From Ferrovibrio terrae (GTDB lineage Bacteria; Pseudomonadota; Alphaproteobacteria; Ferrovibrionales; Ferrovibrionaceae), in the NCBI RefSeq assembly GCF_007197755.1, contig NZ_CP041636.1, positions 1,834,001 through 1,898,000 on the forward strand: 64,000 nt of DNA. The letters are read 5' to 3'. This document shows positions 41,132-43,597 of this stretch, piece after piece (the first letter of the stretch is position 1; every line of letters begins with the position of its first letter). The position numbers were made by a program, and so were the translations under genes. Under the pieces are notes generated by a model that made no database searches, had not been told where the DNA came from, and was given only the letters and a program-made list of their open reading frames with translations.

Positions 41132-41626
41132 TCACCCCTTCGCCTGCAGCCGCGCCACCACCTCGATCAGCTGATCCGCCACCTGGCCCCAGCCTTCGTG
41201 GAAGCCCATCTGCTCATGCGCCTGCAGGTCTTCATCCGACCAGTGACGCGCGCGCGCCGTGTAGCGCGTCTTGCCGTTGCCGAGGTCCTCGAATGTGGTG
41301 ATCGCCACCATGAAGGCCTTCTCGGTCGGCTGCCAGCCCGGCGTGAAGGCATCGGTGGAGACAATGCGTTCGTTCGGCACCACTTCGAGGAACACGCCGT
41401 CGCAAGGATATTCCGCGCCGTTGGTCGGGTCCTTCATGGTGAACTTGAAGCGGCCGCCGGCGCGGAAGTCGATCTCGGTGTCGGTGATGCTCAGCGGCTT
41501 CGGCGCGAACCATTCGGCCAGATGATGAGTCCAGGCGCGGTAGACCAGCGCCGGGGGCGCATCGATCACGCGGGTCAGCGACAGTTCGCGGGTGGCGGCA
41601 GTCTGAAGATTGGTCATGGCGTTCAT
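41132..41626 (-). CDS. SRPBCC (AHSA1-like) domain protein
   Basis: 164 residues from the ATG preceded by AAAGGA; the open frame upstream to 41809 lies in the sigma gene. The domain shows VIDAPPALVYRAWTHHLAEWFAP and FRAGGRFKFTMKDPTNGAEY, then FTPGWQPTEKAFMVAITTFED and HWSDEDLQAHEQMGFHEGW, standard in AHSA1/SRPBCC proteins that bind hydrophobic ligands. It belongs to the regulon of the neighbouring ECF42 sigma factor: its promoter at 41656-41686 is the same bipartite motif with identical spacing as before the DGPF gene. Biochemical function unknown. Confidence 0.9.
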   Translation of the reverse strand: MNAMTNLQTAATRELSLTRVIDAPPALVYRAWTHHLAEWFAPKPLSITDTEIDFRAGGRFKFTMKDPTNGAEYPCDGVFLEVVPNERIVSTDAFTPGWQPTEKAFMVAITTFEDLGNGKTRYTARARHWSDEDLQAHEQMGFHEGWGQVADQLIEVVARLQAKG

Positions 41627-41655
41627 CTGTTGGGTCCTTTCCGGTGTTGATACCT

Positions 41656-41686
41656 CAAGGACGGGGTGGGACAGGACAATCCGACA
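41656..41686 (-). promoter_or_regulatory. ECF42-type promoter of the SRPBCC gene
   Basis: Read leftward: TGTCGGATTG, 13 bp, CGTCCTTG, 29 bp before the ATG. The identical motif and spacing precede the DGPF-sigma operon at 43362-43392. TGTCGG as -35 and CGTC as -10 with 17 bp between them resembles the TGTCGA-type promoters reported for ECF42 sigma factors in Streptomyces. Confidence 0.8.
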
Positions 41687-41702
41687 CGCGGCCGGATTTT
41701 TT

Positions 41703-42950
41703 TCAGGCAGTTTTCGACAGCTTGTCGAGGTGCTGGCGGATATGGGCGGCCTCGGCCGGGGTGCGGGCCAGCGCAATGGCGCGGTCGAAAGCCACGCGGG
41801 CGTCCTCATTGCGACCGAGCTGCTGCAGCAGCGCGCCTTTCACGCCGAAGAAATAGAAGTAATTCGCCAGTGCCGGGCCCAGCGGCTCGATCAGGTCGAG
41901 CGCGGCTTCCGGGCTGTCGGCTTTCGAGACCGCGACGGCGCGGTTGAGCGCGATCACCGGCGAGGGCTGCATGCGTTCCAGCGTCGTGTAAAGCTGTACG
42001 ATCTGTGCCCAGTCGGTGTCTTCCGCTTGCGCCGCACGCGCATGCAGCGCGGCGATGGCGGCCTGCACCTGCATGGGCCCTGGCTTCGCATGCCGCACCG
42101 CCTTGTCGAGCAGGGCGAGGCCTTCCTGGATCAGGTCGGCATCCCAGCGCGAACGATCCTGGTCGTCCAGCAGGATGATCTGGCCGTCGGCATCCAGCCG
42201 CGCCCCGGCGCGGGCATGCTGCAGCAGCATCAGCGCGGTGAGTCCCATGATCTCGGGTTCGGAGGGGAACAGCCGCAGCAGCAGGCGGGCGAGGCGGATC
42301 GCCTCGGCGCAGAGCGGCTGGCGGATCAGCGCATCGCCGCCGCTGGCGGAATAGCCTTCGTTGAACAGCAGGTAGAGCATCGCCGCCACCACGCCGAGCC
42401 GCTCGACGCGTTCGGCCGCACCCGGCGTGGCGAAAGCGATCTCGGCTTCGCCGATGCGGCGCTTGGCCCGGGTGATGCGCTGCTCCATCGCGCTTTCGCT
42501 GACCAGAAACGCGCTGGCGATCTCGGCCACCGTCAGGCCCGACACGATGCGGAGCGCGAGCGCGATCTGCTGCGTGTTCGGCAGATCGGGATGACAGCAG
42601 ATGAACAGCAGCCGCAGGATGTCGTCGCGATACTGCGCGCCGTCCAGCCGTTCGGCCATGTCGTCCTGCACATCTCCCCCGTCGGTGAGGCTGTCATCCT
42701 CCGGCAACGCGACATGCTTCAGGCTGCGGCGTGCGTCATCGACGCCGGAATTGCGCCCGACAAAAATCAGCCAGGCGGCCGGATCGCGCGGCGGGCCTTT
42801 CCCGGGCCAGTTCTGCAGGGCGCGCAGGCAGGCTTCCTGGAAGGCTTCTTCCGCACGATCCAGATCGCCGCGGAAATAGCGCAGCAATGCGGCCACCGCC
42901 TGTGGCCGGGCGGATTTCAGTGCGGTGTCGATCCAGGTCAGGTCGGTCAC
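41703..42950 (-). CDS. ECF42-family RNA polymerase sigma factor with C-terminal TPR-like extension
   Basis: 415 residues. Region 2 appears as AEEAFQEACLRALQNW ... DPAAWLIFVGRNSGVDDARR, and region 4 as LALRIVSGLTVAEIASAFLVSESAMEQRITRAKRRI (helix-turn-helix). The remaining ~220 residues are helical repeats, for instance LIQEGLALLDKAVRHAKPGPMQVQAAIAALHA, the extension that defines ECF42 and replaces an anti-sigma factor. Its start overlaps the stop of the DGPF gene by 4 bp, the hallmark gene order of this group. It probably transcribes its own operon and the SRPBCC gene from the shared motif. The activating signal is unknown. Confidence 0.93.
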   Translation of the reverse strand: MTDLTWIDTALKSARPQAVAALLRYFRGDLDRAEEAFQEACLRALQNWPGKGPPRDPAAWLIFVGRNSGVDDARRSLKHVALPEDDSLTDGGDVQDDMAERLDGAQYRDDILRLLFICCHPDLPNTQQIALALRIVSGLTVAEIASAFLVSESAMEQRITRAKRRIGEAEIAFATPGAAERVERLGVVAAMLYLLFNEGYSASGGDALIRQPLCAEAIRLARLLLRLFPSEPEIMGLTALMLLQHARAGARLDADGQIILLDDQDRSRWDADLIQEGLALLDKAVRHAKPGPMQVQAAIAALHARAAQAEDTDWAQIVQLYTTLERMQPSPVIALNRAVAVSKADSPEAALDLIEPLGPALANYFYFFGVKGALLQQLGRNEDARVAFDRAIALARTPAEAAHIRQHLDKLSKTA

Positions 42951-43339
42951 GAAATCATGGTCTCCCGTTTCTCAGTGTCAGGAATGAAGGCGCGCAGCGG
43001 ACGAATCTCGAAGGCGCCGCTGCCGCCATCGCCGTTTTTGCCGGCCATGCCGCGCGCGATGTCGACGGCCTCGTCCAGCGAGGCGACGTCGATCACATAC
43101 AGGCCGAGCAGCTGCTCTTTGGTTTCGGCGAACGGCCCGTCGATCACGACGGGTTCGGCGCCATAGCGCACCGTGGTGGCGGCAGTGGTGTTCATCAGGC
43201 GCAGGATGGGCCCAAGCTGGCCCTTTGCGGCCAGCTTGTCGGTGACGGTGCGGCGCTTGGCGATTACCGCGTCGTCCTTGGCCTTGGGCCAGGCTTCCAC
43301 GGCGGCTTCGTCGTTGTAGCAAAGGATGGCGTAAAGCAT
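42947..43339 (-). CDS. YCII-related DGPF-domain protein, ECF42 partner
   Basis: 130 residues; MLYAILCYNDEAAVEAW and VVIDGPFAETKEQLLGLYVIDVASLDEA are the YCII/DGPF signatures (the DGPF motif is intact). These proteins accompany ECF42 sigma factors and are their main transcriptional targets; they share a ferredoxin-like fold with muconolactone isomerases but no activity is proven. The start is the ATG at 43339, 23 bp downstream of an ECF42 promoter. Translation is coupled to the sigma factor gene by a 4-bp overlap. Confidence 0.93.
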   Translation of the reverse strand: MLYAILCYNDEAAVEAWPKAKDDAVIAKRRTVTDKLAAKGQLGPILRLMNTTAATTVRYGAEPVVIDGPFAETKEQLLGLYVIDVASLDEAVDIARGMAGKNGDGGSGAFEIRPLRAFIPDTEKRETMIS

Positions 43340-43361
43340 CGGTGCAGGTTCCTGTTGAATC

Positions 43362-43392
43362 CAAGGACGTGGAAGTATGGCCCAATCCGACA
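43362..43392 (-). promoter_or_regulatory. ECF42-type promoter of the DGPF-sigma operon
   Basis: Read leftward: TGTCGGATTG, 13 bp, CGTCCTTG, identical in both boxes and spacing to the element before the SRPBCC gene, while the 13-bp spacers differ. This indicates autoregulation of the sigma factor operon. It lies 23 bp upstream of the DGPF start. Confidence 0.8.
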
Positions 43393-43597
43393 GGCCGGGC
43401 CGACAGGCGGGATGAAAAATCTCTGCATATAATTCAGTCCATTACCTGAAAGGTCATGGTCGGACCCGCGCTGCGCGTCACGGCGGTAAACACGTCGGCC
43501 GATAGTAAAATTCAATAATTAAGCCGCAGCGCTTGTATTTTATTGCCGGCCAGACCGGCGATTGCTACAAAACGCGGCCCTTTTCAGCCGGTCTTTC

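Follow-up and report, generated by a model that had tools for sequence, protein, structure and literature searches.

A predicted ECF42 sigma factor regulon in Ferrovibrio terrae and a possible housekeeping promoter element nested in the promoter of the sigma factor operon

Organization of the locus

The window, a stretch of 64,000 nucleotides from the 4.26 Mb genome of Ferrovibrio terrae, carries three genes encoding a YCII-related protein, an ECF42 sigma factor and an AHSA1/SRPBCC-domain protein (SRPBCC1), identities with which the Pfam search agrees (Table 1). In the ORF reading, the stop codon of the YCII gene overlaps the GTG start of the adjoining sigma gene, and such a YCII/DGPF neighbour is a hallmark of ECF42. 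The sigma core consists of PF04542 and PF08281, both above the Pfam cut-off, with TIGR02937 above its cut-off as well, and it is followed by the TPR-like C-terminal extension of about 200 residues that defines ECF42. PF20239 (DUF6596) was found in this extension with an E value of 5e-37, and TPR_1 and TPR_2 stayed below the Pfam cut-off. In the AlphaFold model (mean pLDDT 75, pTM 0.62), in which the placement of the domains is not to be trusted, extension residues ~178-414 are helical and mostly confident, and Foldseek searches with the model returned TPR superhelices and ECF sigma factors with modest TM-scores. The Pfam domains and the gene layout bear out the assignment of an ECF42 sigma factor with a YCII partner made in the earlier note. 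This is the one DUF6596 sigma factor in the genome, and its closest named relatives, to which it is 91 and 85% identical, are encoded in MAGs of Ferrovibrio.

The neighbouring ORFs were read as an HPP/CBS membrane protein, a periplasmic binding protein and an EamA-type transporter. No anti-sigma-like gene was seen among them beside the YCII-sigma operon, in line with the absence of an anti-sigma factor noted before.

Table 1. Features of the ECF42 locus (window coordinates) and predicted promoter sites elsewhere in the genome (C1 coordinates)
Feature	Position	Strand	Basis
AHSA1/SRPBCC-domain protein, 164 aa, predicted regulon member	41132..41626	-	Pfam PF08327, E 7.7e-28
Predicted ECF42 promoter of SRPBCC gene: TGTCGG-N17-CGTC, then CTTG	41660..41686	-	
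A-tract (AAAAAAAT), UP-element-like, just upstream of SRPBCC promoter -35 box	41696..41703	-	
ECF42 sigma factor, 415 aa: regions 2 and 4, DUF6596, TPR-like C-terminal extension	41703..42950	-	Pfam, AlphaFold, Foldseek
YCII-related (DGPF motif) protein, 130 aa	42947..43339	-	Pfam PF03795, E 2.7e-18
Predicted ECF42 promoter of YCII-sigma operon: TGTCGG (43392-43387), 17-nt spacer, CGTC (43369-43366), then CTTG	43366..43392	-	
CATACT, housekeeping -10-like hexamer, motif positions 13-18 in spacer of YCII-sigma promoter	43374..43379	-	
Site before membrane-anchored SRPBCC gene (SRPBCC2)	C1:1194264		
Site before second YCII gene (YCII2)	C1:3121422		
Site before VOC/3-dmu-9_3-mt gene	C1:4020232		

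The bipartite promoter motif

The motif TGTCGGATTG-N13-CGTCCTTG occurs exactly twice in the window, at 41656-41686 and 43362-43392 on the minus strand, upstream of the SRPBCC gene and the YCII-sigma operon, which confirms the two copies first noticed there; none was found in 100 dinucleotide shuffles, and the chance expectation is none. Measured from the end of CGTC, the distance to the ATG is 33 nt at the SRPBCC gene and 26 nt at the YCII gene. Across 80 alphaproteobacterial loci around related ECF42 sigma factors (873 kb), TGTCGG-N17-CGTC gave 146 exact matches distributed over 76 loci, with 1-2 matches for scrambled patterns and 7-12 for spacings of 15, 16, 18 or 19, so the 17-nt spacing is strongly preferred. 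The boxes, described as identical in the earlier note, do match between the two window copies, but only TGTCGG and CGTC(C/T)T are kept in relatives; the ATTG that follows TGTCGG in both copies is not conserved, and an identical 10-mer therefore overstates the box. The conserved core is thus TGTCGG-N17-CGTC(C/T)T.

In sigma-operon and target promoters alike, the -35 box is preceded by an A/T tract at -18..-11, whose A+T content in the two classes is 0.84 and 0.74, compared with 0.39 further upstream; this tract is like an UP element. The window contains a second TGTCGG at 43400-43405; it precedes the -35 box of the sigma operon by 13 nt, and by 12 nt in another Ferrovibrio genome. It was rejected as a tandem -35 box, since no -10 matches it at a distance of 17 nt and some relatives lack it.

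The same boxes have been described for RpoE10 of Sinorhizobium meliloti, an ECF42 factor, where they are backed by 5'-RACE and overexpression (PMC6180224). The sequence CCCTGTCGGCAGGCGGCATCCTCCTTCGTCCTTGGAATg precedes SMc01149 (Table 1 of PMC6180224) and a similar box precedes the YCII gene SMc01151, and in both a 17-nt spacer separates TGTCGG from CGTC. Overexpression of RpoE10 raised SMc01149-01148 and SMb20475-20474, whose products have domains of the hydrophobic-ligand and glyoxalase-like types. SMc01151 was not raised, and the start site reported for it overlaps with the motif (PMC6180224).

Extent of the regulon

Scanning the genome for TGTCGG-N17-CGTCCT gave five matches, two of them in the window and the others before YCII2, the VOC gene and SRPBCC2, all three of which sites are also kept within the genus Ferrovibrio. 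The regulon, initially described as self-contained, is hence larger than the locus, and the sigma factor probably controls at least five promoters, not two, as judged from the distribution of sites. Four matches to the shorter TGTCGG-N17-CGTCC (11312, 1037509, 1775183 and 4262965) were discarded, as they lack CGTCCT and have no expected target downstream.

Ferrovibrio genomes with the ECF42 sigma factor carry 4-6 motif sites each (n=5), and those without it carry 0 (n=5). For 21 of the 23 sites in the genus, an orthologue of one of five genes follows within ~71 nt; the other two have no plausible target. The motif is thus present and conserved upstream of orthologous genes, and conservation of the box pair before the orthologues of SRPBCC1 agrees with its proposed membership in the regulon. 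In the sigma-less genomes, a VOC orthologue (G006, 70% identity) and two SRPBCC2 homologues (G003 and G007, 50% and 46%) have no motif; the SRPBCC2 orthologues in the sigma-plus genomes G005 and G008 are also without it. Motif presence tracks sigma presence, an indirect indication that these promoters may depend on the sigma factor. The boxes might alternatively be a chance or duplicated repeat with no promoter function, as sequences this short could allow, but the expectation of zero, the conservation in 76 of 80 loci, the co-occurrence with the sigma factor and the position upstream of orthologues in sigma-plus and not in sigma-minus Ferrovibrio genomes make this explanation exceedingly improbable.

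Among 67 proteins following boxes other than those of sigma operons, 23 AHSA1, 21 glyoxalase, 10 YCII, 6 polyketide_cyc2 and 5 DUF899 assignments were made, these families overlapping within one protein. The predicted targets have small folds of a ligand-binding or enzyme-like kind, as would suit a stress or small-molecule response.

The VOC target is adjoined by a divergent cluster (L033:4533-7770; G000:C1:4017532-4020769) of an ArsR-type regulator, an AHSA1/SRPBCC protein, a GFA protein and an MFS gene, with a weaker ECF42-like box, TGTCGG-N17-CGTCTTTA, before the MFS gene at C1:4018840.

A housekeeping-type element in the spacer of sigma-operon promoters

In an alignment of 51 non-redundant YCII-sigma promoters and 74 target promoters, motif positions 13-18 read NNTANT, usually CATACT, CATAGT or GATACT, in 28 of the former and 1 of the latter. 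This hexamer was not found at other offsets in the 51 promoters, and spacer shuffles yielded it at this position 0.6 times on average and five times at most, against the 28 observed; 23 of the 51 promoters lack it. At -11 or -9, a position that precedes the spacer hexamer by 18 or 16 nt, T(T/C)GA(C/T) occurs in 23/51 sigma-operon and 0/74 target promoters. When the sigma factors are clustered at 80% identity, 16 of 28 clusters have the nested element, which is therefore not confined to one lineage.

The pattern resembles that of a housekeeping promoter interlaced with the ECF one. The predicted start of its transcript, at about motif position 25, falls on the ECF -10 box, in which case the two holoenzymes would exclude each other. 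In the window, as in Ferrovibrio generally, the -35 for CATACT is weak, and scanning the window with the sigma-70 consensus did not pick up the nested site, so that the case for a nested promoter is a comparative one. Tentatively, with a chance of being right placed just short of even, the sigma operons of alphaproteobacterial ECF42 factors may be read from an interleaved double promoter, with the housekeeping -10 fixed at positions 13-18 and the -35 just upstream of TGTCGG, the mutually exclusive holoenzymes ensuring a constant low supply of sigma factor and limiting runaway autoactivation, and with targets devoid of the element. No earlier description of a nested -10 in ECF42 sigma-operon promoters was found, and the element is possibly a new feature.

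Two other readings of the sigma-operon promoter were weighed. The YCII-sigma boxes could be a true ECF42-dependent promoter providing classical positive feedback, the spacer hexamer being something else: boxes and spacing are the same as at targets and kept in most loci, and 26 nt before the ATG leaves room for a normal start site. Set against this are the behaviour of SMc01151, which RpoE10 overexpression left unraised and whose start overlaps the motif (PMC6180224), and the phase-locking of the housekeeping-type -10 in sigma-operon promoters only, and such feedback is regarded as a real possibility that falls somewhat below an even chance. Alternatively, GGCATA(C/G)T could be the site of another regulator, for which the conservation of the two G's before the hexamer and the imperfect match of the latter to the housekeeping consensus can be cited; this is rather unlikely, since T(T/C)GA(C/T) lies 18 or 16 nt upstream with the bias expected of a -35 (23/51 versus 0/74). 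For the nested housekeeping promoter, the reported overlap of the S. meliloti start site with the motif and the missing autoactivation fit, though the S. meliloti spacer is a poor match, its element being poorer than that of Ferrovibrio.

Proposed mechanism and relation to known ECF42 systems

The locus is considered very likely to represent a typical alphaproteobacterial ECF42 regulon, in which the sigma factor acts on TGTCGG-N17-CGTC(C/T)T targets. The fused TPR-like extension would stand in for an anti-sigma factor and may act as the sensor. The sigma factor would direct RNA polymerase to TGTCGG-N17-CGTC(C/T)T, boxes whose recognition is proposed by analogy with RpoE10, the sole relative for which it was demonstrated, and would thereby turn on SRPBCC1 next door and YCII2, VOC and the membrane-anchored SRPBCC2 elsewhere in the genome. 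The sigma operon itself is proposed to be transcribed mainly by housekeeping RNA polymerase from the -10 in the ECF spacer, giving a basal sigma supply, and control would then act on sigma activity rather than through strong autoactivation, which is doubtful.

The system is of a known kind with an already published promoter, and its regulon was underestimated by the earlier note. S. meliloti RpoE10 shares with it the YCII-sigma operon, the identical spacing of TGTCGG-N17-CGTC, the TPR extension and the absence of an anti-sigma factor, as well as glyoxalase-like targets and a hydrophobic-ligand-domain target next to SMc01151-rpoE10, as SRPBCC is here; with the same boxes, layout and target kinds, both promoter and regulon type were known. 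Ferrovibrio differs by two added predicted targets, YCII2 and the membrane-anchored SRPBCC2. A thinly studied but very widespread sigma group thus gains, from a non-rhizobial genus, a well-defined predicted regulon of five promoters, backed by a natural contrast of sigma presence and absence inside Ferrovibrio. The part deserving follow-up is the nested housekeeping element, which, if true, could account for the lack of activation of the SMc01151-rpoE10 operon by RpoE10 itself in S. meliloti.

In other bacterial lineages, Sven_0747, Sven_4377 and Sven_7131 of Streptomyces venezuelae and ECF-10 of Pseudomonas putida likewise combine an ECF core with a TPR extension, essential for activity in these ECF42 relatives, and a conserved YCII neighbour, as here; a role for the YCII protein in ECF42 regulation is also considered possible (reviewed in PMC8999054). 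Among 114 alphaproteobacterial genomes, at least two motif sites were present in 9 of 19 with PF20239 (DUF6596) and in 2 of 95 without, and 9 of the 19 had 0 sites. The sigma factors compared from these motif-free genomes are at most 48% identical to that of the window, which makes the box a feature of a subgroup and not of all alphaproteobacterial ECF42 factors. The claim that the locus gives the alphaproteobacterial ECF42 promoter thus fails on two counts, the motif having been mapped in S. meliloti already (PMC6180224) and being absent from those nine genomes. At loci L052-L056, L058 and L068-L070, whose alphaproteobacterial ECF42 factors share less than about 50% identity with that of the window, TGTCGG-N17-CGTCCT is mostly missing, and some of them carry TGTCGA or TGTCGG with CGTCTA/CGTCGT-type boxes, which suggests ECF42 subgroups with different promoters.
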